Shown here piece after piece: positions 22,412-60,557 of a DNA stretch of 64,000 nucleotides. The position numbers were made by a program, and so were the translations under genes. This DNA is from Gammaproteobacteria bacterium. GTDB lineage: Bacteria > Pseudomonadota > Gammaproteobacteria > Eutrophobiales > Eutrophobiaceae. Where the stretch lies: positions 1 to 64,000 of the forward strand of contig JAPOQU010000079.1 in NCBI GenBank assembly GCA_026710545.1. Direction: 5' to 3'. The stretch's first letter is position 1, and the number at the start of each line of letters is the position of its first letter. The notes beneath the pieces are model-generated. The model did not search any database, had not been told where the DNA came from, and was given only the letters and a program-made list of their open reading frames with translations.

Positions 22412-22451
22412 GATATTTGGGGTCAGAGCAATAGCTCTGACCCCAAATATC
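22412..22451. repeat. Perfect GGGGTCAG hairpin between liuB and liuC
   Basis: Arms of 18 bp (GATATTTGGGGTCAGAGC and its complement) around the 4-nt loop AATA form a perfect stem. It lies in the gap between mccB and the enoyl-CoA hydratase gene. In RNA this would be a very stable structure within the liu mRNA and could affect relative expression. Confidence 0.9.
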
Positions 22452-44648: not shown

Positions 44649-44735
44649 GCCGGGGTGGCGGAACTGGTAGACGCGCCGGATTCAAAATCCGGTTCTGGCA
44701 ACAGAGTGAGAGTTCGAGTCTCTCTCCCGGCACCA
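44649..44735 (+). tRNA. tRNA-Leu (anticodon CAA)
   Basis: A class II tRNA with acceptor GCCGGGG pairing with TCCCGGC (one G-U), D-arm GGCGGAACTGGTAGACGC, anticodon stem CCGGA/TCCGG with loop TTCAAAA (CAA at 34-36), a long variable arm, T-arm GAGAG-TTCGAGT-CTCTC and encoded CCA. A possible -10 TATACT lies at 44617-44622. Its 3' 23 bp and three following bases are repeated at 47917. Confidence 0.95.
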
Positions 44736-44738
44736 TTT
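44713..44738 (+). other. Attachment site copy 1 (in tRNA-Leu)
   Basis: The 26-bp sequence beginning TTCGAGTCTCTC and ending CACCATTT spans the T-loop, T-stem, acceptor and CCA of tRNA-Leu plus TTT. It is identical to 47917-47942. Confidence 0.75.
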
Positions 44739-44775
44739 CTCCTATTCGAGGAAAAAATTTAACTGGATTAGCAAC

Positions 44776-45225
44776 ATGTTTTTTCAACCGCATTCCATAG
44801 TATTCCACTTATTATTATTTTTAATGTTGGCGGCAATTCCAGTCTATATTAGAGCAGATCTTATCAGTGGATTGGAGAATTATTTACAGATTGTGAAAGG
44901 AGAAGGAGACATAAAAAATCTCTCACCTAATGAGGTAAAAGAAGTTCTTGAAATCCATGAGCGACTTAAGAGTTTTGGAACAAATACTGCGATTACTGAT
45001 GGATGTGAAGCGGTTATCGAATCTCAAATTGACGGCGAATTTAGCGGATGGGAAGGGGAGACGATATTCAAACTTATAAACGGGCAAATTTGGCAACAAA
45101 GCTCGTATTCCTATACTTATCATTACGCTTATATGCCAGAGGTTATAATTTATCCATCAGGAGGGTCTTGTAAACTCAAAGTTGAAGACGTTGACGAAGC
45201 GATATTTGTGTATAGGCTCAAATGA
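44776..45225 (+). CDS. Secreted hypothetical protein
   Basis: A 149-residue protein with an N-terminal hydrophobic signal (IVFHLLLFLMLAAIPVYIRA). The C-terminal ~75 residues (GCEAVIESQIDGEFSGWEGETIFKLINGQIWQQSSYSYTYHYAYMPEV) form a compact beta-rich module seen in conserved hypothetical proteins of varied bacteria. No enzymatic motif. First gene inside the tRNA-Leu element; AT-rich codon use differs from the chromosome. Confidence 0.75.
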   Translation: MFFQPHSIVFHLLLFLMLAAIPVYIRADLISGLENYLQIVKGEGDIKNLSPNEVKEVLEIHERLKSFGTNTAITDGCEAVIESQIDGEFSGWEGETIFKLINGQIWQQSSYSYTYHYAYMPEVIIYPSGGSCKLKVEDVDEAIFVYRLK

Positions 45226-45273
45226 GATTTCAAATATATAATTAGGTCCAAACAACTTATTTGGAAACAGACT

Positions 45274-45726
45274 ATGAGACAGAAATTGAATACTGGGATT
45301 AGGGCGGCTATATATCTTGTTATCCTGTTACTAGCGGGGTGTGCAACCAGCTATCAACCTAAGGGATTGACTGGCGGCTTTTCGGAAATTCAAATTGCTG
45401 AAGGCACTTATCAAATTACCTTTGAAGGGAACGCGTATACCGACAAAAGAAAAACCATTGATTTCACCCTGTTACGTAGCGCTGAAATCACGCTTGAGAA
45501 CGGTTATAGATATTTTGTTATAACTGATTCTGGAGCCGAAAGGGATTATAGGCAGCGTGACAGGGTATTACATGCGTCTGGTGCTGTTTCATTCATTGTC
45601 AAAAAACCGAGCGCCTCTAATACCATAATCTGTTTTCGTGAGGATGTGAAATCTGAGCCTGATTTTTATGACGCCAAATACGTTGCCGAGTCTATCAGGA
45701 AGAAATACGGGATAGGGGGGTATTGA
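45274..45726 (+). CDS. Lipoprotein, CC0125/CC1285-like family
   Basis: A 150-residue lipoprotein with lipobox LLLAGC (Cys23). The mature part reads GFSEIQIAEGTYQITFEGNAYTDKRKTIDFTLLRSAEITLENGYRYFVI, the typical pattern of the CC0125/CC1285 lipoprotein family (GYSE..., V.F.GN.., LLR.AE.T...G). Function of the family is unknown to me. It follows the secreted hypothetical gene in the same orientation, so the two may be cargo acting at the envelope. Confidence 0.8.
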   Translation: MRQKLNTGIRAAIYLVILLLAGCATSYQPKGLTGGFSEIQIAEGTYQITFEGNAYTDKRKTIDFTLLRSAEITLENGYRYFVITDSGAERDYRQRDRVLHASGAVSFIVKKPSASNTIICFREDVKSEPDFYDAKYVAESIRKKYGIGGY

Positions 45727-45842
45727 GGGGGAGGTCACTTGTTGAGGTCACGTATTAACTGATAAGAAACCTGACTCTTGTAAACCTTCACTCTTGAGGG
45801 AGAATCTTGTGAATGTCAAATGTGAGAATAAAATAATCAAAC

Positions 45843-46349
45843 TCAGGCCGTTATACCTTCAGCTCTCAATAGTTCAGTCAGGTCATAGTGCCTAATCCCC
45901 TCACGGCTACAAAGCTCTGGAATCCTGATTTTCTTTTGGCTCGGCTGGCGATACGGCTTTTCCATGCTCATTACCGAAAGACCTAATGTTTTAGCTAAAC
46001 AAACTATTGAGCAATCATTGAGGCTTATCGTTCCCTTTCGATTTCCGTTATATTCAGAGATGTAATCTTTATACTTGGTTCTCATTAGCTCAACATATTC
46101 CAAGTATTTTTGCCAAGGCCAATCTCCAATTCCTACCTCAAAGCAAACAATTTCGTTGGAAAACGATAAACATTCTCCGATTTCTCCTGAGACAGAGGGC
46201 GAAAGTTCATTCCATATATCCATATTCCAGCAAAATACGCCGTCCTCTATTAATCTCATAATTTCACGCCAGAGCGAGACATGGACATCAGGCGGCATAT
46301 CTAGTAATGGATTTGTAATTCCAGATGTATCTAAGCAATAGCGCGGCAT
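45843..46349 (-). CDS. DUF4411 family PIN-like protein
   Basis: A 168-residue protein starting MPRYCLDTSGITNPL, the DUF4411 form of the PIN-domain first strand (LD-T/S), with later acidic residues (GTISLNDCSIVCLAKTLG). It is likely a ribonuclease toxin. It begins immediately after the stop of the ImmA/IrrE gene (TAA then ATG), so they form one unit; DUF4411 next to XRE-ImmA proteins is a recurrent toxin-antitoxin-like arrangement. Confidence 0.85.
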   Translation of the reverse strand: MPRYCLDTSGITNPLLDMPPDVHVSLWREIMRLIEDGVFCWNMDIWNELSPSVSGEIGECLSFSNEIVCFEVGIGDWPWQKYLEYVELMRTKYKDYISEYNGNRKGTISLNDCSIVCLAKTLGLSVMSMEKPYRQPSQKKIRIPELCSREGIRHYDLTELLRAEGITA

Positions 46350-47546
46350 TTAACCCACTAAATTTCGGCGTATATCATCAAGATGAGCTACATTTTTTAT
46401 GCCCATAAATTCAGCTGCATTATGGCTTGATATCGCACCGGTTTCCCACGCCTCAACCACGAGACCCGTGTAATAAGTTCCAAGACTGTTTTTGTAACGA
46501 GATCCATAGTAAGACGGGCGCATTGGAGGAGATTTGAAATTTTCTTCTTCATCTAAATAAATCGGACGCTTGATCCTCCAATAAAAACCAGGCTTTACAT
46601 AGCCAAGATTGACAAGGCGAATGAGCATAGCGTGACGACTCACCGAAAATCGCGTGGCAAGCAAATCAAGCACAGAATCTTCAAGCTCATCTTTAGGTAC
46701 ATCCGGCCTAGCTATTAAATTGTCAAGAGCCTGTCGTGGAATTAAAAAAGACGCCGCAAAACGATTACACCAACCCTCAATTGATTTCCCTCTGCTAGTA
46801 GTGTTACCAAAACGTGGTCCACCACTGATAGCACTTTGCCTTAATAGGATATGGCCAAATTCATGTGCAATTGTAAAGGCCTGAGCACTTGGTGCCTCGT
46901 TACCGTAAACTATTATTGGTAGAGGTTCTGCAAATAGGCAGATCCCTCTCGTTCTAGCCTTATGTAGATCACTATGCTTCAGAATAAGAACACCACATTC
47001 ACTTAAACAGGATCGTAGAATATCTGGGAGTCGCCTTTTCTGGTTGGAATTGAGTTTAAATTGAGCCTCGATGGGTAATTGAACAAATTCTCGTGCTTTT
47101 TGTGCAGCCTTATCCACTTCCATTTCAAGGCTTGTATAAAGCTCTAGAGGGAATTTTGGTGTTATATCGCCCATAATTTCAAAGAGGTCTAGAGCATTTA
47201 ACCTTTGTTCTTCCGCCCATCTTTGTATTTTTCTGAGCGCAATGAGTTCTATCTCAAAAGGAGGAACACGATGAAAACGAAAGTCTGGAACAAGTTGAAC
47301 TGGCAGAACATTTGGAATCTCAGACGCGAAAAACTCTAAAAATGGCCTTTCATATAGGGCAGCTAGTTTTCTACCCTGCTTGACGGTTGGTCGTCGTGTA
47401 GCCTCTGGATTTTCCCAATCAATAAGCCGTTCAATGCTTGTATGAATACGCTTTGCAGCTGTTTCTATTGGAATTCCAATTCTTTCCCTGGCCCAGCGAA
47501 GAACCTCTGGGTTAAATGGTAATGGTTCTGATCGCGAAGCAGTCAT
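46350..47546 (-). CDS. XRE-like HTH plus ImmA/IrrE (M78) metallopeptidase
   Basis: A 398-residue protein: N-terminal helix-turn-helix (NPEVLRWARERIGIPIETAAKRIHTSIERLIDWENPEATRRPTVKQ) and a C-terminal zinc peptidase with HEFGH (228-232) and CNRFAASFLIP supplying the third ligand region. Proteins of this COG2856 type repress operons and cleave a partner regulator on stress. It is upstream of and abutting the DUF4411 gene, so it is the presumptive antitoxin/regulator. Confidence 0.87.
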   Translation of the reverse strand: MTASRSEPLPFNPEVLRWARERIGIPIETAAKRIHTSIERLIDWENPEATRRPTVKQGRKLAALYERPFLEFFASEIPNVLPVQLVPDFRFHRVPPFEIELIALRKIQRWAEEQRLNALDLFEIMGDITPKFPLELYTSLEMEVDKAAQKAREFVQLPIEAQFKLNSNQKRRLPDILRSCLSECGVLILKHSDLHKARTRGICLFAEPLPIIVYGNEAPSAQAFTIAHEFGHILLRQSAISGGPRFGNTTSRGKSIEGWCNRFAASFLIPRQALDNLIARPDVPKDELEDSVLDLLATRFSVSRHAMLIRLVNLGYVKPGFYWRIKRPIYLDEEENFKSPPMRPSYYGSRYKNSLGTYYTGLVVEAWETGAISSHNAAEFMGIKNVAHLDDIRRNLVG

Positions 47547-48160
47547 TTCTGTCTACTTAATAATTGCTATTGATCCAGAGCTTGTTTTTAGAATTGGCCT
47601 TTCAAAACAGGCAAATTTGTCATGTAAGATTACAGACTCCAACAACTTAGTCAATGTAATAGGTTAGCGAGTCGGAGTGAATGAGTTCGTCCGACTATGG
47701 AAGTTATATTTATTTGCTTCATGATGTCGAAATCAGGCATGGTGTTTTCCATAAGGCGATGTCGACTATCATGAATCGTACATGGATCAACACTACTCAA
47801 TCAAGGGTGAAAACCAATATTAGACACGTTTAAAAGAAAATTATGGGGGGGGAAATCGTTGGAATATATTGGATATTAATTATTTTATTCTTTAAAAATA
47901 ATAAGTTATTCGTAGCTTCGAGTCTCTCTCCCGGCACCATTTATTACTTTGGTATTAATAAGTTAATTCCTGTGGCCCAGTAGAAATTCATTGACCGGCT
48001 TCAATCAACGGCCTTTGTCCATTGCCCAAAGGCATCTCTCCTGAGTTTTCTGTAATGCGTAGCTGATGATAGCGGGTGGAAACCGGTGAAGTTTGTATGT
48101 GTTCATTCCCGCATTATCCATTTTCGGGAGTTATTTTGTCAAAATCACGCAGATTGAAAA
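47547..48160. other. Intergenic region holding attachment-site copy 2
   Basis: No gene is supported in this stretch. It contains an inverted repeat AGTCGGA (47671-47677)/TCCGACT (47691-47697), AT-rich sequence near 47820-47910, and the second att copy at 47917-47942. From 47943 to 48160 nothing further is recognisable. Confidence 0.6.
47917..47942 (+). other. Attachment site copy 2 (tRNA-Leu 3' end duplicate)
   Basis: Exact 26-bp copy of the tRNA-Leu 3' end plus TTT, with no tRNA sequence in front of it. It marks the distal end of the element. Confidence 0.78.
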
Positions 48161-48556
48161 TCAGCGACGATCATGAATATTGTCTTTCGCCCTGCTACGC
48201 CGAAGAAAAGCTGCAAGCTCCGTTTCCTCAACGATACCCTGGGCTGCTTTTATGACCATATCCCCAAGGGTTTTTATATCGTACTCAAGCTGAATACCAT
48301 TCAGTTTCAGGATGACCTGCATGGCCGTATGCGCGGTTCTTTTATTGGCATCGTGAAAGCAGTGGCCGACGGCAATATAGCAGGTGTAACAGGCGGCAAG
48401 ATCATAAACATCACCGATAAGTCCATAGGCAAGGCGGTTTTCGATCCTGCCAATCACGGCCTCAACAGGTCGCTCGCTCACTATGCCCTGTAACTCGTCA
48501 CGCAATATTACTCGTTCATGTATGGCGACGACTTGCTCAGCCGTGATATAGCGCAT
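48161..48556 (-). CDS. doc: Doc-type Fic-fold toxin
   Basis: A 131-residue death-on-curing protein from MRYITAEQVVAIHERVI, with the Doc/Fic active-site motif HCFHDANKRTA (His65). Doc phosphorylates EF-Tu at Thr, arresting translation. The ATG at 48556 overlaps the antitoxin TGA by one base (TGATG). Typical length and N-terminus for Doc rather than AMPylating Fic. Confidence 0.92.
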   Translation of the reverse strand: MRYITAEQVVAIHERVILRDELQGIVSERPVEAVIGRIENRLAYGLIGDVYDLAACYTCYIAVGHCFHDANKRTAHTAMQVILKLNGIQLEYDIKTLGDMVIKAAQGIVEETELAAFLRRSRAKDNIHDRR

Positions 48557-48804
48557 CACTTGTCTTTGAGGTAGTCGTTCACCGCCAGTGCGTTATCATC
48601 GAGAGTGTCCAGCGCAGCCATCACTTCGTCTGTTTCGCACACACTGAAATCAAGTTTTTCCACGGCACTCGCCGGGACGAAATATCCCACCACATTCGAA
48701 CGATTGAGAACTGCCACAGGTTTGGAGCCTGCCTTGTCAATGACTTTCCTGGGTTCGCGTAGCTCGGTTACCGATACGGTCTTATTGGTCAGAAGGGTCT
48801 CCAT
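48556..48804 (-). CDS. phd: Phd/YefM-like antitoxin
   Basis: An 82-residue antitoxin with an N-terminal Phd fold (KTVSVTELREPRKVIDKAGSKPVAVLNRSNVVGYFVPASAVEKL) and a C-terminal tail carrying DNALAVNDYLKDK that would bind Doc. A GGAG lies about 12 bp upstream of its ATG. Overlaps the doc start, forming a standard type II operon. Confidence 0.88.
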   Translation of the reverse strand: METLLTNKTVSVTELREPRKVIDKAGSKPVAVLNRSNVVGYFVPASAVEKLDFSVCETDEVMAALDTLDDNALAVNDYLKDK

Positions 48805-49258
48805 GGTAAGCTCGTCTCCAATGTGAATGTCAATATATGATACACAATTAAAAGTGCTTTTAAAATAAAGTATGACAAATCAAGAAATCCTTGATGTTAT
48901 ACTTAACTTGTCAAGACCGAAAGTTTGACGCTGTACCCTCTCTGCTGCGCAGACGTTGTGCACATGCGCCAGACTCAGTAAACTGCGTATTTCTTTTAGT
49001 TAATGCCCAGAGCCCTGTCCAGAATGCCTGCTTCTGCCAACAAGTCATATACAAGCTGTGTAATCCGTTCATAAACCAAGCCATTCACGGCGCTCAAAAA
49101 ATTTCTGTAGTTTCCTCTGGAAATATGCGTTGAAAATTTTTCTTTAACCACTCGTGAATCAGAAATTCTCATGCAACCTTATGTTTTATTTTCACCTCCA
49201 TAAAATGTAGGTTAGAATGTAAAGGCCCCTAGTTGATCAGACTAGGGATCTTGCTTAT
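48805..49258. other. Intergenic region without a supported gene
   Basis: AT-rich just upstream of phd (48830-48900), where the phd promoter should lie. A 7-bp hairpin CCCTAGT (49227-49233)/ACTAGGG (49241-49247) precedes the tRNA-like sequence. An 80-codon frame at 48891-49133 has no recognisable features and is not called. Confidence 0.5.
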
Positions 49259-49345
49259 GCTCAGGTGGTAGAACTGGTAAACACAGGAAGCTAGCACTTC
49301 CCACGTCTCGCAGGCTTGCGGGTTCGAATCCCGCCGCCTCCACCA
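49259..49345 (+). tRNA. Degenerate tRNA-like sequence (Leu-like 5' half, Ser-like 3' end), likely pseudo-tRNA
   Basis: The D-arm (GGTGGTAGAACTGGTAAACA) resembles that of tRNA-Leu, an anticodon stem GGAAG/CTTCC is present, and the T-arm GCGGG-TTCGAAT-CCCGC and terminal CCA are intact. However, the 5' acceptor (GCTCAGG) does not pair with the 3' acceptor (CGCCTCC), and the anticodon loop is only six bases (CTAGCA). It looks like a recombined or captured tRNA/ssrA-type 3' end rather than a working tRNA. Confidence 0.45.
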
Positions 49346-49495: not shown

Positions 49496-51523
49496 ATGGT
49501 TGATTATCTCGTCGTGACATTCATCCGAGAGGAGTATGAGGCAGTCCTGCGGCAGTTTCGGGATCCTGACGATAACACTGTTTCGGGAGTCCCCGGCGAT
49601 ACCCGAGTAGTACGGGTGACGGCGAGGAGCGGCCAAGGTGTCGCCGTCGCAATCGCGAGGACTGCTTGCGAGGGCAATGTATCAGCGCAGGACGCGGTGC
49701 TTGAACTGATCACTGCGCAGCAGCCGAGGCTAGTCCTTGCCGTGGGTATTGCGGGTGCAGTGCCTACAAGCGATGTCTTCTTGGGCGACGTCGTGCTCGC
49801 AAAGGACATCCACGACCTGACGCGCGGTGCCGAGACTGCTACCGGTAGAGAGGAAGCAGCGGCGAGTTCCTACTTGATGAACGCTGTCAAGGATTTCGTC
49901 ACGAATGTGACGACGCACGACTTTAAGAAATGGCAGGATTGGGCCGCTTCCATCGCTCGACCCGAAGTGGAAGGAATTGGGAACTCATGGACCGATGATG
50001 AAGATTGGGACAAGAAGATAAACGGGACCCTTGAGGACAACCGGAAACGTACGCTGCCGATAGTCGTCGACGGTGTGATTGCCAGCTCCGATCATCTCGT
50101 GAAGTCAGAAGATTTCATGGAAAACCGGCTACTTGTCGACCGTCGCATACTGGCCAATGACATGGAGTCAGCGGGCGTGGCAAAGGCTTGCGAGAGGAGA
50201 CACGTACCACTGCTCATTCTCCGTGCCATAAGTGACATCGTTGGGCATGCCAGGAGTGATGATTGGAAGCGTTATGCATGCGAAATCGTTGCGGGGTGTG
50301 CGCGGGAGGTCGTGTATCTCGAGTCTGTCGACACTATCGAAAGCAAGCTCAAGAAAGGAGAGCCGGGACTTTCAGGTGCCACAAAAGGCATCATTGACTC
50401 GTTGGACGACACACTCGTTCGGATAAGGCGCGGTGTGACCAGCGAATATGCGTCGGCATGCCAAGAGGCATTCGACCGGTTTCGGGAGCTTCCAGAAAAG
50501 CTAAAGAGGCGATGGGCTCCCGACCTGTTTGAAACTCTTGATCGACCGATGAAGTACTTGGGTGACAAGAAGCTCGTTCTAGATGTTGCTAAAGCGTGCA
50601 TTGAGTGCTGTAGCGGTGTGGACTTGGACGATAGGACAGCAGAATGTCAGGCGAGGGCCAGGATATGCGGCACATCATGGGTCTACCAAAGGACGGGTAA
50701 CTTGGGGTTGGCTGAGCAAGAAGCGCTAAAGAGCGTACGCATCAGCGAAGGAGTCAGCTCGCGCAAAAACCTCGCGTTTTGCAAGAAGTGTCTAGGACGA
50801 CTTAAACGATTGCGAGCTGAGGCGGAATCCAACCCGGAAGTAAAGCGCGCGTTCTTCAAGGATAGTGTGCAGTGCCTTGAGGAAGCCATTTCTTTGTTTC
50901 GCGATCTCGATCACGACCGGGAGGTTGGCGATTGCTACAGCCTGTTGGGGAGGACGTACCTCAGTAAAGGGGATATCCGCACGGCAAGCGAGTGCGTCGA
51001 GGAAGCGATGCGTCGGATCGACCCCGATTCAAAGGACTACCTAGATCTCCGGATTTTGGAAGGGGACATCTGCTTGGCCGCGGGAGAGCACGCGAAAGCT
51101 TTTGAGGCGTTCGGAGAGGTGATCGATTTGTCATCGGAGCAGGACTACCAGATATCAGAGATTGTGGCTAGGGCTCACCGTCAAAGAGCGTGGACGTTGA
51201 TGCGAGTGGGTCGAAACGCAGAAGCGGAAATTGCGTTCGCCAAGGCGCAGAGGATCTGGGAGTACTACGGAGAGGACAACTTTGCCGCTGAGGCGGAATG
51301 GGGTGGAATTCTCGCATCCGAGATATTGGAACGGCGGACGAAGTTGTTGCTGGAAGCGGAAGACTCACTAGTGCGCTGCGAGGCCGTGAGGCTCTACAGG
51401 GAAGAGCAGTCCAAGCGTAGGCCAAGAGCTGTGGCACAGAGGGGCCGGGCTGATAACACGGTCTGGAAAAACCTTATCAAGGAGGCGAAACGACTGCAGG
51501 CACTAGGCTCTGGGTCGGACTAG
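49496..51523 (+). CDS. Nucleoside phosphorylase-domain/TPR protein
   Basis: A 675-residue two-part protein. Residues 1-275 form a PNP/MTA-SAH nucleosidase-type domain: VDYLVVTFIREEYEAVLRQF, LVLAVGIAGAVPTSDVFLGDVVLAKDI (phosphorylase GI/GAL loop), and DMESAGVAKACERRHVPLLILRAISDIVG, the conserved M-E-x-x-G and R-x-I-S-D motifs that bind the nucleoside. Residues ~310-640 are helical repeats of TPR type (GTSWVYQRTGNLGLAEQEAL, YSLLGRTYLSKGDIRTASECVEEA). PNP domains appear as N-terminal effector/associated modules of NLR- and TPR-based bacterial conflict proteins. The next gene, a protease, begins at the very next base. Role as nucleotide-depleting effector is inference. Confidence 0.85.
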   Translation: MVDYLVVTFIREEYEAVLRQFRDPDDNTVSGVPGDTRVVRVTARSGQGVAVAIARTACEGNVSAQDAVLELITAQQPRLVLAVGIAGAVPTSDVFLGDVVLAKDIHDLTRGAETATGREEAAASSYLMNAVKDFVTNVTTHDFKKWQDWAASIARPEVEGIGNSWTDDEDWDKKINGTLEDNRKRTLPIVVDGVIASSDHLVKSEDFMENRLLVDRRILANDMESAGVAKACERRHVPLLILRAISDIVGHARSDDWKRYACEIVAGCAREVVYLESVDTIESKLKKGEPGLSGATKGIIDSLDDTLVRIRRGVTSEYASACQEAFDRFRELPEKLKRRWAPDLFETLDRPMKYLGDKKLVLDVAKACIECCSGVDLDDRTAECQARARICGTSWVYQRTGNLGLAEQEALKSVRISEGVSSRKNLAFCKKCLGRLKRLRAEAESNPEVKRAFFKDSVQCLEEAISLFRDLDHDREVGDCYSLLGRTYLSKGDIRTASECVEEAMRRIDPDSKDYLDLRILEGDICLAAGEHAKAFEAFGEVIDLSSEQDYQISEIVARAHRQRAWTLMRVGRNAEAEIAFAKAQRIWEYYGEDNFAAEAEWGGILASEILERRTKLLLEAEDSLVRCEAVRLYREEQSKRRPRAVAQRGRADNTVWKNLIKEAKRLQALGSGSD

Positions 51524-52252
51524 ATGGCTCGGCGAAACTATTGGCAAACTGCCGCAGCGCAACGCGTGAGACAGGTCGCTGGACTGAAGGATATCGATCA
51601 GGCCATCACGAAGATCACTGAGGACCTGGTGGATGGACTGGGCGGTCCTCCGACCGACTTGGAGGCGCTGGCCCGCAGGGTCGACGTTATGGATATCCGT
51701 CTAGACGACACGATGTTGGTGCCCGGAGAGCTACGAGAGCTGAGTGAGGGGCTGGTCGTGTTTCTGTCACCTAGCCTGACCAAGACTCGGCGCCGGTTCA
51801 CGCTTGCGCACGAGCTCGGCCATGCCTTCTTTGAGGGGACTGGGCGACGGCCGCACCCGAGTCGAGAGCTTGAACGGCTCTGTGATAAGTTTGCTGCCGA
51901 GTTCTTGATGCCTCGACGCGTGTTTGTCTCGTATGCGGGTCGGCACCCAGATCTTCCGCGTGTCCATGAACTTTGCCAGAGATTCAAGACGGGTCTGTTG
52001 GCGACGCTCGGGCGAGTCTCAGACATTTATCGCTACCGTGCAATTGAGTTGTGGGACAGTAAAGTAGTTTGGCACCGTAGATTGAGTGTGCCGGTGTTAC
52101 ATCAAGTCAGTGACCAGCTGAAGGCGTTGTACGGTGAGGCAGGAAACGAGGTCATCGAATTGTACGAGGGAGGAGGATACTCGAGGTGGAATCTTGAATG
52201 GGAGCCTCTCGGAGGAGAGAACCACAGAATAGGATTGTTGTATCCAGCATAG
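51524..52252 (+). CDS. ImmA/IrrE-family metallopeptidase
   Basis: A 242-residue protein with an M78 zinc peptidase core: TRRRFTLAHELGHAFFE (HELGH 96-100) and CDKFAAEFLMP (Glu126 as third ligand region). The N-terminus has a short helical segment rather than a clear XRE HTH. ImmA/IrrE proteases are activated by DNA damage or other signals and cut a repressor or partner. It starts immediately after the stop of the PNP-TPR gene (TAGATG), so the substrate or regulator is most simply that protein. Confidence 0.88.
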   Translation: MARRNYWQTAAAQRVRQVAGLKDIDQAITKITEDLVDGLGGPPTDLEALARRVDVMDIRLDDTMLVPGELRELSEGLVVFLSPSLTKTRRRFTLAHELGHAFFEGTGRRPHPSRELERLCDKFAAEFLMPRRVFVSYAGRHPDLPRVHELCQRFKTGLLATLGRVSDIYRYRAIELWDSKVVWHRRLSVPVLHQVSDQLKALYGEAGNEVIELYEGGGYSRWNLEWEPLGGENHRIGLLYPA

Positions 52253-52457: not shown

Positions 52458-53105
52458 TCAGATTTTTTTCGCCGCGATTCCCACAGCCGCGGCATTTGTA
52501 ACCATTCGATAAGCACTCTGCCTACTCGCCTGAGAACACAGTAATATCACGCTGATAAGCACAAGCAACGACCAATGCCCCAAGGAAGATAGTGATACGT
52601 AGACAGCCAGATATTGCCATAAGAGCATAGCTGTCAAAAGGACGAACAGCCCCGAGACCGCATCACGATACAACAGAAAACTACGATGCGCCTGTAAGAC
52701 CTCCCGGGTATCTTTCACCGGCGAGAAAATCTCCTTGTACCAGTAGGCGTTCTGAGACACCTCTGCCATGTCATGTACAAACAACTCAGGCCATTTTTCC
52801 TGTAACAACACCATGGAAAGACGCTGGTCATTGGCACACAGCGTCTTACACCGGTGGCCTGGAAGTACATTGCTAATCCGAAGGAATAGCAATGCATGTT
52901 TCACGGAATTGGGAAGGATATGTGACAGCAACGCGCCAAAACTGGTGATAGCAGCCATGACAAATGACTGTTTGAACAACTGGTCGGTAAACGCAAAAGC
53001 CTCTAATACACCCCATTGAACCAGAACCATAAGAGTCAATGTCCCGACGTAGATTGCTGTCAGGGGAACAGTGTTCTGTGATTTCAGGTCTTTCTCTCTT
53101 GACAT
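52458..53105 (-). CDS. Four-helix membrane protein paired with an MBL hydrolase
   Basis: A 215-residue protein with two N-terminal hydrophobic segments (about 15-38 and 47-65) and two C-terminal ones (about 148-168 and 175-195) around a soluble middle region. This 2+2 arrangement recalls membrane effector modules in bacterial conflict systems, but no named family (such as SLATT) can be assigned with confidence. Its ATG follows the stop codon of the MBL gene directly (TAAATG), so the two are co-translated. The 52253-52457 stretch downstream holds no supported gene. Confidence 0.7.
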   Translation of the reverse strand: MSREKDLKSQNTVPLTAIYVGTLTLMVLVQWGVLEAFAFTDQLFKQSFVMAAITSFGALLSHILPNSVKHALLFLRISNVLPGHRCKTLCANDQRLSMVLLQEKWPELFVHDMAEVSQNAYWYKEIFSPVKDTREVLQAHRSFLLYRDAVSGLFVLLTAMLLWQYLAVYVSLSSLGHWSLLVLISVILLCSQASRQSAYRMVTNAAAVGIAAKKI

Positions 53106-54200
53106 TTATTTTTCATCCTCATAAACCCAGTAATATTGATCTGAGACCACTGCATTCCAACCCCACCGACAAGGGGCATTATATGCGTATCGTGTCGTCT
53201 TTCCCCTAGTAGCCATCGCATTCACACCCCGGTGTGTCAATGCGTTCATAACAGCCTTGTACGGATGCTTCGGGTCCCCTTTGCTGGCTGTTGATACGAC
53301 GGCAAACACGTTGCGTGTCATTCCAGGTGGTAATGGCGTACCAACCAAGCGGTTTAGTATTGTCGGACCGACATTTCTTCGACTCCCATGATGTGGGATT
53401 TGTATGAGCGCCCATTGAGCCAGTTGTGAAGACCAAACCATATTGTCCAACGCATGAGATAACGCGGTGATGCCCGCATCACCCGTGAACAGTAACCGTC
53501 GGCCTTCCACAACCAACTGGGTTATAACACTTGTCTTGTTCTTTGCTGAGGTGGCGTCCTCATCATCAAGTGCATCTACACCCCAATTGGAAAAGAACAA
53601 TTTTTTCGATTGTGAATCAATTTCCATGAGCACTTCTGCAAGACTTCTTACAGGCTTTTTGACTTCAGGCATCCCGTCAAATTCAGGGATGAGACTTTCA
53701 TAATAATCCTTGTTCGGCCCTAGAATCTGTAAATGATTTTCGTCATATAACGAAGTTCCAGTGAAGGGCTCAATGATATGAATACTTTTTTGCTAAGCTT
53801 TGGCGACTAGATTGCTTGCCGCATCCAGGCTTTCACACAAGCGATTCCCGATGCTGGCATCCGTGACTCGCCCATCCATAAATTTACCCGCTAAACCTGA
53901 GTTGTGTTTCCATGGCTGATGTATCCAAAGTTCTCGTACAAGTAAACTATCAAGCACGACATCTAGCCCGCTGATGTGATCCAGGTCCGGATGGGTTGAT
54001 ATGACCGCGTCAATCATGTCAGTCCCATAATACCTGGTAACATGATTAACCAATTCTTGTCCTGAATCGCGAAAACCTCCATCAATAATAACGACTCGCT
54101 GTTCCTCACGTTGACCGTGTAGATTCCCCCAGCGGAGCGCTATGGCATCGCCGCTTTTGGATTCCTGGCCGACTCCGATGATGTCTACCTCATATCCCAC
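53106..54200 (-). CDS. ComEC-like MBL-fold hydrolase interrupted by an in-frame amber codon
   Basis: The reading frame spans 364 codons with one TAG at 53795-53793 (after residue 135) and continuous, sensible MBL sequence on both sides in the same frame. The N-terminal part carries STHPDLDHISG (His70, Asp72, Asp74, His75 metal site); the C-terminal part has SVITQLVVEGRRLLFTGDAG and IQIPHHGSRRNVG, as in ComEC/Rec2-type beta-lactamase folds. Across the stop the text reads ...VAKA-stop-QKSIHIIEPFTG. No signal peptide or membrane segment. Either a fresh nonsense mutation, a sequence error, or readthrough. Pairs with the following membrane protein. Confidence 0.8.
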
Positions 54201-54727: not shown

Positions 54728-55063
54728 ATGTCCCAAATCCTGAAGAATCTGCCGGTGGGCAGCTATGCTGTAGTATTTCCGTCGATCAGCAGCGGCGTCG
54801 ATGAGGAGGGGCACGAAAAAATGCTTGCTGAATTGTACGGCCGGGTCCAGGAAATCGAAGGTTTTCTGGGTCTGGAATCCGCCTCAAGCAGCCCCTTCAA
54901 GCTTGCTGTTGCATATTTTGATTCCCTTGAGTCCATAGCTGCCTGGCGGCGAAACAGCACGCATATCGCCGCCAAGAACAAGGCCCGTTCCACCTGGCTG
55001 GATGACTGGCAGATACGAATCTGCAAAATTGAGGATATATACGGAAAACAGTCAAATGATTAG
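54728..55063 (+). CDS. Antibiotic biosynthesis monooxygenase (ABM)-domain protein
   Basis: A 111-residue dimeric alpha/beta-barrel type protein. The late segment VAYFDSLESIAAWRRNSTHIAAKNKARSTWLDDWQIRICKIEDIYG is the standard ABM pattern (W.s.eal.aWr....H..a...gr..w...y...i..v). Such small proteins oxidise quinones or degrade haem, or have no known activity. It converges on, and overlaps by 12 bp, the nnrU-like gene. Confidence 0.82.
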   Translation: MSQILKNLPVGSYAVVFPSISSGVDEEGHEKMLAELYGRVQEIEGFLGLESASSSPFKLAVAYFDSLESIAAWRRNSTHIAAKNKARSTWLDDWQIRICKIEDIYGKQSND

Positions 55064-55624
55064 CGGTACGCCAATCAACCGGCTGTGCAATATAAACAGG
55101 AACAGCGCGTAAATTCCCAGGCCGGCCACAACGGCAATAAGGTCGTTTGCAGCCGTTTCAGAAAATCCGGGTGCCGGACGCGGCCGGCGGTGTTTCATGG
55201 AAATACGCCCGGCGACCGCCCAGGCCAGAAAGCAACCGAACAGCAGCACATCGGCAAGGGCGCCGTTAACCAGCAAGTGCGCAAACGCCCAGATCTTGAC
55301 CGCGGTAAAAGCCGGATATTTCACTGCGGCTTTGATGCGCCCCGGTAAAAAAACCGCCAGCAGCAGCGGGAATACGAACAGCATCAGGAGAAAGTTGACG
55401 TGCCGCAGCCAATCCGGCGTTGTATAGAGGACTACAGGAACATTCCTTGCGATTCCGTAACCCCATACCAGCAACACCAGTCCGCCAAGTGAAGCCAGTC
55501 CATGAAGGACTCTCCATGGGCGTTCACCCAGCCGTTGCGCCATGTCGTCGCGCCAGGAGTCACTGATGATGGAGATGGAATGTACGGCAAAAAAAAGTAT
55601 CAGCCCGGTAATGAATAACAGCAT
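55052..55624 (-). CDS. NnrU family membrane protein
   Basis: A 190-residue integral membrane protein with about five to six helices. LILFFAVHSISI at the start, LGERPWRVLHGLASLGGLVLLVWGYGIAR and KIWAFAHLLVNGALADVLLFGCFLAWAVAGRISMKHR match NnrU, a haem/nitric-oxide-metabolism associated protein also related to isoprenoid-type methyltransferase folds. No denitrification genes are nearby, so the role here is unassigned. Confidence 0.88.
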   Translation of the reverse strand: MLLFITGLILFFAVHSISIISDSWRDDMAQRLGERPWRVLHGLASLGGLVLLVWGYGIARNVPVVLYTTPDWLRHVNFLLMLFVFPLLLAVFLPGRIKAAVKYPAFTAVKIWAFAHLLVNGALADVLLFGCFLAWAVAGRISMKHRRPRPAPGFSETAANDLIAVVAGLGIYALFLFILHSRLIGVPLII

Positions 55625-55809
55625 AAATGCTCGCCTCAGTGGAAATTACATGGCAGTTTATGTGACATCAATCCTGAACAAATATACACGCAATCACCGG
55701 GGTTGAAGAGAGGAACCTGTTATGTAACGGCCCGTTATTGTTACATCAACCGATTCTGCTGTAGACTTCATGAATTATTTTTCCTGTTCCTCAACCTGGG
55801 GGGTTCCCT

Positions 55810-56112
55810 ATGGATATCAAGGACATTTGCGCCGACATGGCGCAGAAAGCCACCACTATCGACCCGCTCGGGAAGACATTGAAATTCTGCCTCGACGACG
55901 AAATCATGTTGATAGACGGAACCGGTGAGCAGAACGAGGTGTCGATAATTACCGGGAATGATATTGAATCCGACTGTACCGTTACCATGTCGCTGGAAAC
56001 CTACGGCAAGCTGCAGCGGCGGGAAGTGAAGCCCTTCATGCTGGTTGCATCCCGCAAGATCAAGGTGAAAGGCGACTTGTCGATAGCAGCCAGGCTGAAA
56101 CAGTTGACGTAA
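55810..56112 (+). CDS. SCP2 sterol-binding domain protein
   Basis: A 100-residue single-domain SCP2: GKTLKFCLDDEIMLIDGTGEQNEVSIITGNDIESDCTVTMSLETYGKLQRREVKPFMLVASRKIKVKGDLSIAARL. The D-CTVTMSLETY and KIKVKGDLS segments are diagnostic. It would bind lipids, sterols or acyl-CoA. It starts a three-gene same-strand group with a sulfotransferase (3-bp gap) and a DUF1214 protein, suggesting lipid or steroid handling. Confidence 0.9.
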   Translation: MDIKDICADMAQKATTIDPLGKTLKFCLDDEIMLIDGTGEQNEVSIITGNDIESDCTVTMSLETYGKLQRREVKPFMLVASRKIKVKGDLSIAARLKQLT

Positions 56113-56115
56113 CCG

Positions 56116-57375
56116 ATGTACGAATCGAGCCTGGCGATAAAACGTTCGGGCATACTCAAGACGTTAAACCGCGCAGGTTTTCTCGCCAACAGCCTCGGGA
56201 TCCGACTTTTCGAGCTTGATCAAAACAAAATTCTGCAGCATGCGGCCCGGGTGGCAGGGTTTGAATTCAGGGATGAGCCTATGGAACAGGGACTGGCGCG
56301 CCTGATCACTTCTATCCGGTCCGATGCGCGTCTGAATACGGTCGGCAAGCTGGCGCTGAAACGCAATATCCAAAGGGCCGCGGACCACCGGTTCCTGGTA
56401 GAGCGCAGCCTTGCCGAAAACCCGTCAATTCGCCGCTCCGCGATCAGGACCCCGCTGTTTGTGATCGGGATGCCGCGCACCGGGACGAGTATCCTGCAGG
56501 CACTGCTCTATCGCGATCCGGCGCACCGTTCTCCCTTATCGTGGGAATGCCTGATGCCGCATCCGGCGCCGCAACCGGATAACTATGCCGATGACCCTCG
56601 TGTCAAGCGAATTCAATCGGAGTTCTCGCAACTGTTCACCCTGGTACCGGATTTCAGAAAAAAACACTACATGGAAGCGGATTCACCACAGGAATGCGTG
56701 GGGATTACCGCGCTGAACTTCACCAGTTTCCAATACCTGACGCAGTGTTTTATCCCGGCATATCACGAGTGGTTTGCCAACCAGGCGGACCAGGTCGCAA
56801 ACCTGCGCTGGCACAAGTCCTTTCTTCAGTTTCTGCAATCGGGGGGCGTCAGCACCGAACGCTGGCTACTCAAATCGCCTGTGCACCTGTGCCGTTTGCG
56901 GGCGCTGTTTGAGGTCTACCCGGACGCCCGGATAGTCATGACGCACCGCCATCCGGCGAGTATCGTGCCCTCCGTGGCGAGCCTCCTCACGTCAATTCGC
57001 TCCCTCTATTCCGACCACGAGGACAGCGCAAGGACCGCAAGGGAGAACCTGCAAATCTGGTCGTCGTATTTCAACCGCTTTGTCGAAGACAAAAGCCTGC
57101 TTGGCAAGGACGATCAGATCATCGACCTGCAGTTTGAAGACTTTGTCCGGGACCCCCTGGGCGTGGTCAGGTCAATATACCGGCGTTTCGGCTGGGAACT
57201 GGGTGACGTTGCTGAACAGAACATGCAGGAATTCCTGCTTCAGGAACAGAAAGACAAGCACGGCAGGCACGAGTATTCTCTCGAACAGTTTGGACTCAGC
57301 GAACAGGACGTGGCAGACTGCTTTCGCGTATACCTGGACTTCCTGGACGAGAGAACGACGGCTGACGCTGCCTGA
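56116..57375 (+). CDS. Sulfotransferase family protein
   Basis: A 419-residue protein. The PAPS 5'-phosphosulfate loop is FVIGMPRTGTSILQALL (about 114-130) and the 3'-phosphate loop is VMTHRHPASIVPSVASL (about 273-289). The N-terminal helical region and LHLCRLRALFEVYPDARI core match the Sulfotransfer_3/LPS-sulfotransferase group common in gammaproteobacteria and mycobacteria. It sits 3 bp after the SCP2 gene, hinting at a hydrophobic acceptor such as a sterol or lipid. Confidence 0.92.
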   Translation: MYESSLAIKRSGILKTLNRAGFLANSLGIRLFELDQNKILQHAARVAGFEFRDEPMEQGLARLITSIRSDARLNTVGKLALKRNIQRAADHRFLVERSLAENPSIRRSAIRTPLFVIGMPRTGTSILQALLYRDPAHRSPLSWECLMPHPAPQPDNYADDPRVKRIQSEFSQLFTLVPDFRKKHYMEADSPQECVGITALNFTSFQYLTQCFIPAYHEWFANQADQVANLRWHKSFLQFLQSGGVSTERWLLKSPVHLCRLRALFEVYPDARIVMTHRHPASIVPSVASLLTSIRSLYSDHEDSARTARENLQIWSSYFNRFVEDKSLLGKDDQIIDLQFEDFVRDPLGVVRSIYRRFGWELGDVAEQNMQEFLLQEQKDKHGRHEYSLEQFGLSEQDVADCFRVYLDFLDERTTADAA

Positions 57376-57435
57376 GGCGCGCCCGGCCGCGCTTGCCATC
57401 ACCCTGAAAGCTAATACTGATTAACAGGTTAAAGA

Positions 57436-58491
57436 ATGGAAAGCAAACTAGCCTTCAATGAATTCCTGGAGATGCTGAAGGAGGCGGACCAGACGTTCCT
57501 GGACCCGGAGGCCAACCTGGACGAGCAGGGCAAAGTCGATGGTTACCGGCACTTCTTCCACCTCATGCATGCCGCCGTTGACTTCTACCTGTTCAACGAC
57601 CCATTGAAACCGCGCTTCATGCCGCTCACCAACAGTGGCCGAAAACTGTTTGGCGACAACGTCGATGCGGTTTACTACTTCACCCAGTTACGGGGAGACC
57701 AGGAGTACGTCATAAAGGGGCGCCGTTTTGACAGTTGCTATCTCAGCTTCTGCATCTACGGTGGTGACCCGCACGGGGAACTGGCGGACCGGGTCACGCT
57801 GGACATAAACCAGCGCGATATTCAATTTGAGGAGGATGGTTCATTCGAAATCAGGCTCACTCCCGACCCGGATCCGGGGAATCCCAATGAATTCAAACTC
57901 GAGCCGGATTCGGTGAACATGTTTACCAGGGAGTATTTCTTCGACCGCCCCAATTCCACCGAAAGCGAACTGTCCATCGTGAACACCAATCCGCAACCGC
58001 CAGGTATGCCGTTGACCGATGAACAACTGGCCCGGCACATTCGGACGATGGCCATGTTCTTCCAGTGCACGACCTGGATTGCGCCACTGCCCGTGGAACT
58101 CCCCGTGAATGAGTTTTTGCCGGCGTTCGAGTTCGACCCCGAGCAGGGCGGCTGGGGTACGCCCGACAACATTTATTGCTTCGCCCGTTTCCGGGTCGAG
58201 GAAGATGAGTACCTGAACATCAAAATCCGCTCCCCTGACTGTTGCTATTGGGGAATCCAGACCTGGAACTTCCTGATGCAATCGACGAATTACGCCGACT
58301 TCCCGGTATGCGTAAACAACGCGACGGCAATACCTTCGGAGGACGGTAGTGTTGAAGTGGTTCTCAGCCACCGGGAGGCGCCCCGCAACTGGATGAGTAC
58401 CGCGGGGTACCGCGAAGGAGTCCTGTTCTGCCGCTGGCTGCTGGCGGATGAACTGCCCGAACCTCCCGGGATTACCGTTTTGAAGTGGTAG
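57436..58491 (+). CDS. DUF1214-type protein
   Basis: A 351-residue soluble protein. The C-terminal part has the DUF1214 pattern (DCCYWGIQTWNFLMQSTNYADFPVCVNNATAIPSEDGSVEVVLSHREAPRNWMSTAGYREGVLFCRWLLADELPEPPGITVLK). Mid-protein FCIYGGDPHGELADRVTLDINQRDI matches relatives usually found with sulfotransferases. No catalytic role is known to me. Third gene of the SCP2-sulfotransferase group. Confidence 0.82.
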   Translation: MESKLAFNEFLEMLKEADQTFLDPEANLDEQGKVDGYRHFFHLMHAAVDFYLFNDPLKPRFMPLTNSGRKLFGDNVDAVYYFTQLRGDQEYVIKGRRFDSCYLSFCIYGGDPHGELADRVTLDINQRDIQFEEDGSFEIRLTPDPDPGNPNEFKLEPDSVNMFTREYFFDRPNSTESELSIVNTNPQPPGMPLTDEQLARHIRTMAMFFQCTTWIAPLPVELPVNEFLPAFEFDPEQGGWGTPDNIYCFARFRVEEDEYLNIKIRSPDCCYWGIQTWNFLMQSTNYADFPVCVNNATAIPSEDGSVEVVLSHREAPRNWMSTAGYREGVLFCRWLLADELPEPPGITVLKW

Positions 58492-58502
58492 TTTTTTGCC
58501 TG

Positions 58503-59000
58503 ATGACAGATTACCGATACCAGACCCTGCTCCTGCAACTCAGTGAGCAATTGATACACCAAAACAAGATGCTGGTCACGGCCGAGTCCTGCACCGGCGG
58601 GGGCGTCGCCTATGCCATAACGGAATTGCCGGGCAGTTCGGGGTGGTTCGAGCGGGGGTTCGTGACCTACTCCGACCTTGCCAAGCAGGAACAGTTGGGC
58701 GTTGCCGGGGCCTTGATCACCCGGCACGGCGCGGTCAGTGAAGAGGTCGCGGCAGCCATGGCGCAGGGCGCATTACAGCACAGCCATGCGGACCTCAGCG
58801 TGGCGGTCACCGGCATCGCCGGCCCGGGCGGTGGAAGTGAGGAAAAACCGGTCGGCACCGTCTGTTTCGGCTGGAGCGGACGCAACGGCGATACCAGGAC
58901 CGCCAGGGTAAAGTTTGAGGGAAGCAGGCAGCAGGTGCGGGAGCTCTCGATTTTGACGGCCCTGCAGGGCCTGGCGGACCTGGCAGAGCAATCGTTATAG
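58503..59000 (+). CDS. pncC: Nicotinamide-nucleotide amidohydrolase (PncC/CinA C-terminal family)
   Basis: A 165-residue single-domain CinA-C protein from MTDYRYQTLLLQLSEQLIHQNKMLVTAESCTGGGVAYAIT. AESCTGG, the GFVTYSDLAKQEQLGV strand and VAVTGIAGPGGGSEEKPVGTVCFG are diagnostic. It deamidates NMN to NaMN in the pyridine nucleotide cycle. A start at 58485 adds six residues without support. Followed 4 bp later by thpR. Confidence 0.93.
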   Translation: MTDYRYQTLLLQLSEQLIHQNKMLVTAESCTGGGVAYAITELPGSSGWFERGFVTYSDLAKQEQLGVAGALITRHGAVSEEVAAAMAQGALQHSHADLSVAVTGIAGPGGGSEEKPVGTVCFGWSGRNGDTRTARVKFEGSRQQVRELSILTALQGLADLAEQSL

Positions 59001-59004
59001 TCCA

Positions 59005-59517
59005 ATGAAACGGTTGTTTTTCGCCCTCTGGCCGGACCGCGGGGTGCGCGCCCAACTGGCTGAGCGTGCCGGGTTGCTGCAGATTGATACGGGACGCCCC
59101 GTTCCAGGGGAAAACTATCATGTTACCCTGGTCTTTCTCGGCAATGTGCAGGAGCAGGATATTCCCGGACTGCTTGACGCCGCCGGGCGCTTGAGAATAT
59201 CCCGCTTCCCGTTGCAGATAGACCGCTGCGGCTGGTGGAAACGGGCAAAGGTCGCCTGGCTGGCGCCGGAAACCACGCCGGCGCCGTTGCAGGAGCTGGT
59301 CGAACAGATCAGCCGGTTCAGCATAAACGCCGGGCTATCCATAGATAACCGGGATTACAGCCCCCACCTGACCGTTGCCCGCAAGTTGTCCCGGCCGGTG
59401 ACGGCCATGTCAATCGATCCGGTCCACTGGGATGTCGGGGAGTTCTGCCTGGTTGAATCCATTACCCATCAACAGGGGGCGAGGTACCGGGTAATGAAGT
59501 CGTGGGCGTTATTTTAA
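59005..59517 (+). CDS. thpR: RNA 2',3'-cyclic phosphodiesterase (ThpR/LigT)
   Basis: A 170-residue 2H phosphoesterase with both HxTx motifs: HVTL (His39) and HLTV (His121), in KRLFFALWPDRGVRAQLAE-fold order. It opens 2',3'-cyclic phosphates and may act in RNA processing. Closely spaced after pncC. Confidence 0.94.
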   Translation: MKRLFFALWPDRGVRAQLAERAGLLQIDTGRPVPGENYHVTLVFLGNVQEQDIPGLLDAAGRLRISRFPLQIDRCGWWKRAKVAWLAPETTPAPLQELVEQISRFSINAGLSIDNRDYSPHLTVARKLSRPVTAMSIDPVHWDVGEFCLVESITHQQGARYRVMKSWALF

Positions 59518-59527
59518 TCGATCGCAT

Positions 59528-60445
59528 ATGTCCCTGCCGGCCAAAGAAAATATCAGCGTGTTCCGGTCCCGTACCGGGTTATATGCCTGCCTGGCGCTGA
59601 CCCTTGCCTCGGCGGCCTTTGCGTTTGCCCACGTGGTAGGACGCGGGGTTCATGCCGAAGTCCCGCCAGTTGGGCTGTCTTTCTGGCGCTGGCTGATTGG
59701 AGCGATCGTACTGTGGCCGTTTATTTATCCATCGCTTAAAGCGAATGCGCCGGACATCCGCAAACATATCGGGCCGCTCACCCTGCTCGGCGGGGTTATG
59801 ATCCTGAGCGCGACCTGCCTGATGATCGGCCTGAACTTCACTACTGCGATAAATGCTTCCATTATCAATGCCATACAACCGGTATTCACCGTGTTGCTGG
59901 CCATGCTGATCCTGCACGACAGGTTGCGGCTGTCACAGTCGTGCGGTGTTGCTCTGGGGGTCATCGGCGTGACAGTCATGATTACCAGGATGGACCTGGC
60001 GGCATTGCTCCAGTTGCAATTCAACGCGGGGGACATCCTGATACTGCTGGGTTCAATGGGTTATTCGCTGTATGCCATCAACCTGAGGAAAGTCCCGGAA
60101 TCCCTGGGCCCGTCTGCAGCACTGTTCATGATCATCGTGACAGGCTGTGTAATCGTGCTCCCGTTCTATGTCATCGAAACCATCATCTACACACCGGTGC
60201 CGATCAGCGCGACCGCCATCTACTCCATCATAGCCATGTCATTGGTGTCTACCGTATTCGGGACACTGTTGTGGAACCGGGGAAACCAGCTTATCGGGCC
60301 AAGCCGGGCCGGCATGTTCATCAACCTGATCCCCATCTTTGCGGCCGTCATGGCAATACTGTTCCTGGATGAAAGCCTGACCCTCTACCAGGTGATATGT
60401 GCCGTGCTGATCAGCATCGGCATATTTATGGTGTTACGGCGATAA
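59528..60445 (+). CDS. EamA/DMT-family transporter
   Basis: A 305-residue inner-membrane protein with ten hydrophobic segments in two EamA repeats: GLSFWRWLIGAIVLWPF...INAIQPVFTVLLAMLILHDRL in the first and GTLLWNRGNQLIGPSRAGMFINLIPIFAAVMAILFLDESL in the second. Exports small metabolites of unknown identity. It ends 14 bp before a duplicated hairpin repeat. Confidence 0.92.
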   Translation: MSLPAKENISVFRSRTGLYACLALTLASAAFAFAHVVGRGVHAEVPPVGLSFWRWLIGAIVLWPFIYPSLKANAPDIRKHIGPLTLLGGVMILSATCLMIGLNFTTAINASIINAIQPVFTVLLAMLILHDRLRLSQSCGVALGVIGVTVMITRMDLAALLQLQFNAGDILILLGSMGYSLYAINLRKVPESLGPSAALFMIIVTGCVIVLPFYVIETIIYTPVPISATAIYSIIAMSLVSTVFGTLLWNRGNQLIGPSRAGMFINLIPIFAAVMAILFLDESLTLYQVICAVLISIGIFMVLRR

Positions 60446-60459
60446 AGATATGTGTGGTA

Positions 60460-60557
60460 GATATTTGGGGTGATATTTGGGGTCAGAGTAAAAATACAGG
60501 TGCTGCCGGGAGTTGGCTGCTTTAGTGCTGCGTATTTTTACTCTGACCCCAAATATC
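60460..60557. repeat. GGGGTCAG-family hairpin with duplicated left edge
   Basis: Arms 60472-60497 and 60532-60557 are perfectly complementary over 26 bp around a 34-nt loop. The outer 12 bp of the left arm (GATATTTGGGGT) is duplicated in tandem at 60460-60471. Located between convergent genes; the outer arm is shared with 22412-22451. Confidence 0.9.

Follow-up and report, generated by a model that had tools for sequence, protein, structure and literature searches.

The window analysed here, a stretch of 64,000 nucleotides from a contig of a Gammaproteobacteria bacterium, carries a 3.2-kb islet at the 3' end of a tRNA-Leu(CAA) gene, which is bounded by exact att repeats without an integrase gene between them and is a clear but ordinary case of a decayed or hitch-hiking genomic islet. 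The islet was probably inserted site-specifically by a tyrosine integrase which is now absent, and would thus be the CIME-like remnant of a decayed island. The target gene and the repeats are arranged as follows:

44649-44735, forward strand: tRNA-Leu(CAA), the intact target gene (ARAGORN; Rfam tRNA 56.2 bits)
44713-44738, forward strand: att core copy 1, from the T-loop to the tRNA 3' end plus TTT (exact 26-bp direct repeat)
47917-47942, forward strand: att core copy 2, a displaced 3' fragment of tRNA-Leu on the attR side (exact 26 bp, the rest of the tRNA being absent)
From 47943, the sequence directly past att core copy 2: ATTACTTTGG

The 26-bp core (TTCGAGTCTCTCTCCCGGCACCATTT) consists of the last 23 bp of tRNA-Leu(CAA) followed by TTT, and its second copy lies 3204 bp downstream of the first in the same orientation, which confirms the exact repeats reported in an initial annotation of this DNA. 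The tRNA gene forms the attL side, and its 3' part is now supplied by the insert. With up to three mismatches allowed, two matches to the tail were found in the window and none in 100 shuffles, and the longest tRNA substring downstream was 26 bp in comparison to 9 to 12 bp in 30 Markov-simulated controls. In the genome of the window (a draft assembly of 4.4 Mb in 129 contigs) the core was found exactly twice, both times at the tRNA-Leu islet, while each of five same-genus genomes has one copy, always at the tRNA; the exact 26-mer was also present in two records of the GTDB contigs, with one copy each, one of which is apparently the tRNA-Leu contig of G065. Identity between the repeats begins at the T-loop, which corresponds to the Islander sub-site class J, the insertion point of 1836 of 3919 Islander islands (PMC4383910). 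What is displaced is the 3' part of the gene, located downstream and on the same strand, in agreement with the Islander configuration rules (PMC4383910). The second core is also flanked by AT-rich 27-bp direct repeats (47882-47908 and 47939-47965), which are identical at 20 of 27 positions in comparison to 18 at best among 60 simulated pairs, with the repeat length chosen post hoc; these repeats could be arm-type sites.

The locus was compared with those of same-genus genomes. In four of them (G001, G003, G004 and G006) an identical tRNA is followed after about 75 to 120 bp by an EamA transporter gene, with neither the cargo nor the second repeat at tRNA-Leu, while the contig of G005 ends at tRNA-Leu and G002 gave no good match to this gene. 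In the window, the EamA gene is separated from tRNA-Leu by 14.8 kb:

59528-60445, forward strand: EamA transporter gene, the neighbour of tRNA-Leu in four same-genus genomes

Since the cargo and the second tail are both absent from the four genomes and EamA is 14.8 kb away, the 3.2-kb unit is real but forms only the outermost layer, on the tRNA side, of a variable region that extends further. The search for an empty site, as proposed in the initial annotation, was answered in part: the absence of cargo and second repeat was seen in the four genomes, but the exact junction between the tail and the old flank is not visible, because the flank past the second repeat is also absent from the same-genus genomes. 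The pattern that had been named beforehand as speaking against integration, in which the cargo is absent and the second repeat present, was seen in none of the four. The islet is neither common to the same-genus genomes nor native in composition, its GC and GC3 both being foreign.

The GC content of the islet (44736-47942) is 0.40 in comparison to 0.55 in positions 1-44600 of the window, and the GC3 values of the cargo genes are 0.30 to 0.41 in comparison to 0.70 to 0.74 for queA/tgt. Four intact ORFs lie between the repeats, in line with the four AT-rich cargo genes described earlier:

44776-45225, forward strand: orfA, 149 aa, with an N-terminal hydrophobic stretch and no family assignment
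45274-45726, forward strand: orfB, 150 aa, a CC0125/CC1285-family lipoprotein (NF047637 89.1 bits, cut-off 40)
45843-46349, reverse strand: DUF4411 PIN-domain toxin, VapC52-like (PF14367 37.2 bits, cut-off 23.5)
46350-47546, reverse strand: HTH-Peptidase_M78 antitoxin, VapB52-like (PF06114; PDB 9vzy, E=5.6e-27)

The C-terminal half of orfA has weak relatives in 8 of 274 genomes of the class (own genome excluded) and also on Vibrio and other plasmids, and orfB, which carries the lipobox LAGC, also has relatives on plasmids. No integrase was found in the islet, the window or positions 64001-84000 of the contig by Pfam, a genome-wide PF00589 scan and tblastn, which upholds the earlier statement that a recombinase is lacking; over the final 0.9 kb of the contig, which is 84.9 kb long, only the family search extended. 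Relaxase, packaging and regulator genes were likewise not found among the four islet genes in Pfam and PHROG searches. The claim of site-specific integration at tRNA-Leu has good support from the intact tDNA and the displaced 3' fragment in the same orientation, and further by the foreign composition and the absence of cargo and second repeat in the same-genus genomes.

The antitoxin stop codon directly abuts the ATG of the toxin gene. The acidic residues D7, E48 and D112 of the toxin are kept and do not vary when it is aligned with three plasmid homologues, while the antitoxin carries the motif HEFGH at residue 228 and aligns with PDB 9vzy over nearly its whole length. A DUF4411 PIN toxin with its acidic residues and an adjoining antitoxin combining HTH and HExxH, the features of a VapBC52-like system, are thus both present, and judged from these sequence features the pair is a predicted VapBC52-like toxin-antitoxin system in which both active sites are intact. 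The toxin-like pair noted earlier is thereby confirmed and refined to a VapBC52-like one (DUF4411 PIN plus HTH-M78). The annotations of plasmids from Bradyrhizobium, Methylorubrum and Leptospira include this gene pair as well. VapBC52 is a tRNA-cleaving system, and Mycobacterium smegmatis that overexpresses its toxin was reported to be protected from phage D29 (PMC13273310).

The 14.8-kb stretch between tRNA-Leu and EamA consists of the islet, about 10 kb of defence-like genes and then relocated native genes. The features beyond the islet are:

48161-48804, reverse strand: Doc/Phd-type toxin-antitoxin pair, just outside the 3.2-kb unit (TIGR01550 62.8 bits, over the cut-off; PF02661)
49258-49345, forward strand: degenerate class-II tRNA-like sequence with a tmRNA-like 3' end (partial Rfam tmRNA match at 49318-49334; not called by ARAGORN)
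49496-52252, forward strand: PNP-TPR protein and second M78 protease, a defence-like pair
52458-54200, reverse strand: membrane protein and two-piece metallo-beta-lactamase genes, PDC-M48B-like
55052-59517, strand unspecified: block with NnrU-like, PncC and ThpR genes, located elsewhere in same-genus genomes

The block at 55052-59517 appears to be native DNA that was moved to its place between the island and EamA, as judged from three traced genes. A third copy of the tail was not found at the end of the larger variable region, where the best match had six mismatches, as in shuffles. In the defence-like pair at 49496-52252, the PNP-TPR fusion gene is directly followed by the M78 protease gene and the two resemble PADLOC effector and CapP models and are a possible defence pair. 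Close to the EamA gene, a perfect inverted repeat of 26 bp around a 34-nt loop was observed at 60472-60557 (GATATTTGGGGTCAGAGTAAAAATAC); a related copy is located at 22435 and one more occurs further on in the contig, and the element is REP-like.

In the tRNA-like sequence at 49258-49345 the acceptor arms are unpaired and the final 28 nt match the tmRNA 3' end of two same-genus genomes at 89% identity, and it is possibly the scar of another insertion. Two near-identical class-II tRNA-like genes of about 98 nt were observed elsewhere in the same genome (L095, G000:C98, 3036-3133 and 8274-8372); they score about 52 bits with the Rfam tRNA model, were missed by ARAGORN and have the anticodon loop CTGCCAA. 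They lie in direct repeats of more than 200 bp around a 5.2-kb stretch, which holds an NYN-like protein, a toxin-antitoxin-like pair and an AAA plus DUF3226 pair, next to a 322-aa tyrosine recombinase. Integrases homologous to this recombinase occur in same-genus genomes, where the tRNAs are absent. The assignment of the sequence at 49258 to a conserved integrase-plus-tRNA family was dropped, because the homologous integrases in same-genus genomes are without such a tRNA.

Among the 19 loci of the family that were examined, a second copy of the own tail was found in the genome of the window only. The tRNA-Leu(CAA) gene is disturbed, independently of the window's islet, in three further family loci (G012, G014 and G015). 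In G015 (L051, C12:313000-332500) a displaced 48-nt tRNA fragment lies 6.6 kb downstream, a second tRNA-Leu is present in degenerate form, and the islet between the tRNA copies contains XRE-M78 and Fic genes and gave no Pfam integrase match. The 3' tail of this displaced fragment is interrupted by a hairpin-like sequence of about 46 bp. In G012 and G014, which represent two genera (L052 and L053), an insertion of about 1.4 kb splits tRNA-Leu at the anticodon loop and leaves a displaced 5' half plus a complete tRNA; it carries only an integrase of about 395 aa, and the two are 84% identical to each other. Judged from the sequences at these loci, tRNA-Leu(CAA) is a likely insertion hotspot between queA and EamA. 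It is very doubtful that the family maintains a split system beside queA, in which integrase-only insertions (G012 and G014) and integrase-less islets (G000 and G015) would be combined and the islets moved in trans by transient integrases.

The most probable course of events begins with a tyrosine integrase that would have recombined a circular attP, bearing the ~23 bp at the tRNA 3' end, with tRNA-Leu(CAA), so that the insert would restore the tRNA and the original tail would be displaced to 47917-47942. The larger integrase-bearing island would then, most likely by deletion, have lost its integrase, and a CIME-like islet would remain as the newest layer of the insertion hotspot between queA and EamA. 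The intact VapBC52-like pair and the two envelope-protein genes persist in it; the pair would be expected to cut tRNA when the cell is stressed or attacked by phage, and also to stabilise the islet. We infer the mediation by an integrase, the loss of that integrase by decay and the activity of the toxin-antitoxin pair. CIMEs are att-flanked elements without recombination genes, of a classical size of 1.2-13 kb, which are very prevalent and of which many sit at a tRNA-Lys 3' end (PMC7563491). The islet keeps both att sites with identical 26-bp cores and has no recombination, conjugation or mobilization genes. A related ICE or IME that could be its parent was not found in tandem or elsewhere, and no integrase-bearing relative of the islet was found, so the decay was not traced.

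The initial annotation read the islet as a satellite or a miniature island of defence genes that is mobilised in trans. Its site-specific integration, the lack of a recombinase and the toxin pair stand, but the movement in trans is unsupported: an integrase-less, satellite-like hitch-hiker, excised and integrated by an enzyme which a different element with this core supplies, is unlikely. The two att cores are identical and undamaged and would permit recombination, the unit is compact with all four genes open, and the G015 islet is a second one without an integrase match at the same tRNA. These points are countered by the search for a helper, which showed no integrase-bearing island with this core in the own genome, so that the proposed check for the same core beside integrase islands elsewhere returned only the two copies described above. 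None of the seven non-Xer integrases of the genome is beside tRNA-Leu(CAA), one of them adjoining tRNA-Lys, and the core is absent from IMG/VR viral contigs. A DNA search of 369 class genomes returned the own locus only, plus tRNA tails and short stretches, and protein scans of genome contigs and viral contigs found no other islet copy. The four genes include no packaging, relaxase or regulator gene, and no phage satellite or PICI-like gene (integrase, replication, packaging-hijack) by Pfam and PHROG. With no helper carrying the core in the genome or in viral contigs and no second islet copy, decay or accretion is ranked above movement in trans. CIME-like integrase decay is documented as common and explains the same data (PMC7563491).

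It is also rather improbable that the second tail marks an older and larger island (47943 to ~54.5 kb) and that the 3.2 kb were pieced together from several acquisitions instead of forming one unit. The foreign-looking DNA does continue past the repeat with another toxin-antitoxin pair, the remnant resembling a tRNA and genes of defence type, GC rises stepwise, and the gene block beyond the larger region is relocated; however, the two repeats bound the most AT-rich part, and the four inner genes all have low GC3 (0.30-0.41) in comparison to 0.45 and above outside. An assembly error or illegitimate recombination, of which the second repeat would be a by-product, is highly improbable: the genome is a draft and the contig of G005 ends right at tRNA-Leu, but the repeat ends fit an integrase sub-site that is already known, the repeats are correctly oriented, and a shift in composition coincides with the boundary.

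Decay of an integrase-bearing island is thus retained as the preferred reading. The results show that displaced tRNA fragments mark islets which are overlooked by integrase-based island finders, and they tie a VapBC52-like toxin-antitoxin pair to an integrase-less islet at tRNA-Leu. If the movement in trans were true, a minimal hitch-hiker at a tRNA site would be added.

With CIMEs the islet shares the kept att sites, the absence of recombination genes, a cargo islet in the 1.2-13 kb range and the stacking with variable DNA at a gene 3' end, and it differs in that no related ICE or IME was found, so that its descent from one is presumed (PMC7563491). As in Islander tDNA islands, there is an intact tRNA with a 3' fragment that lies downstream, correctly placed and in the same orientation, and with identity from the T-loop/J sub-site, but the interval contains no integrase gene and therefore does not pass the Islander filter (PMC4383910). 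The IntY islands at tmRNA (such as I55) resemble it in the insertion at an RNA-gene 3' end, with repeats reaching 3 bp past the RNA gene, and in defence-type cargo without transfer genes, whereas those islands bear their own integrase and alpA and extend over tens of kb (PMC12595487). In comparison to VapBC52 of M. tuberculosis, the predicted islet pair differs in its toxin, which is about 20% identical to plasmid DUF4411 homologues, while the DUF4411 PIN toxin, the HTH plus HExxH peptidase antitoxin and the adjacency of the two genes are shared (PMC13273310).
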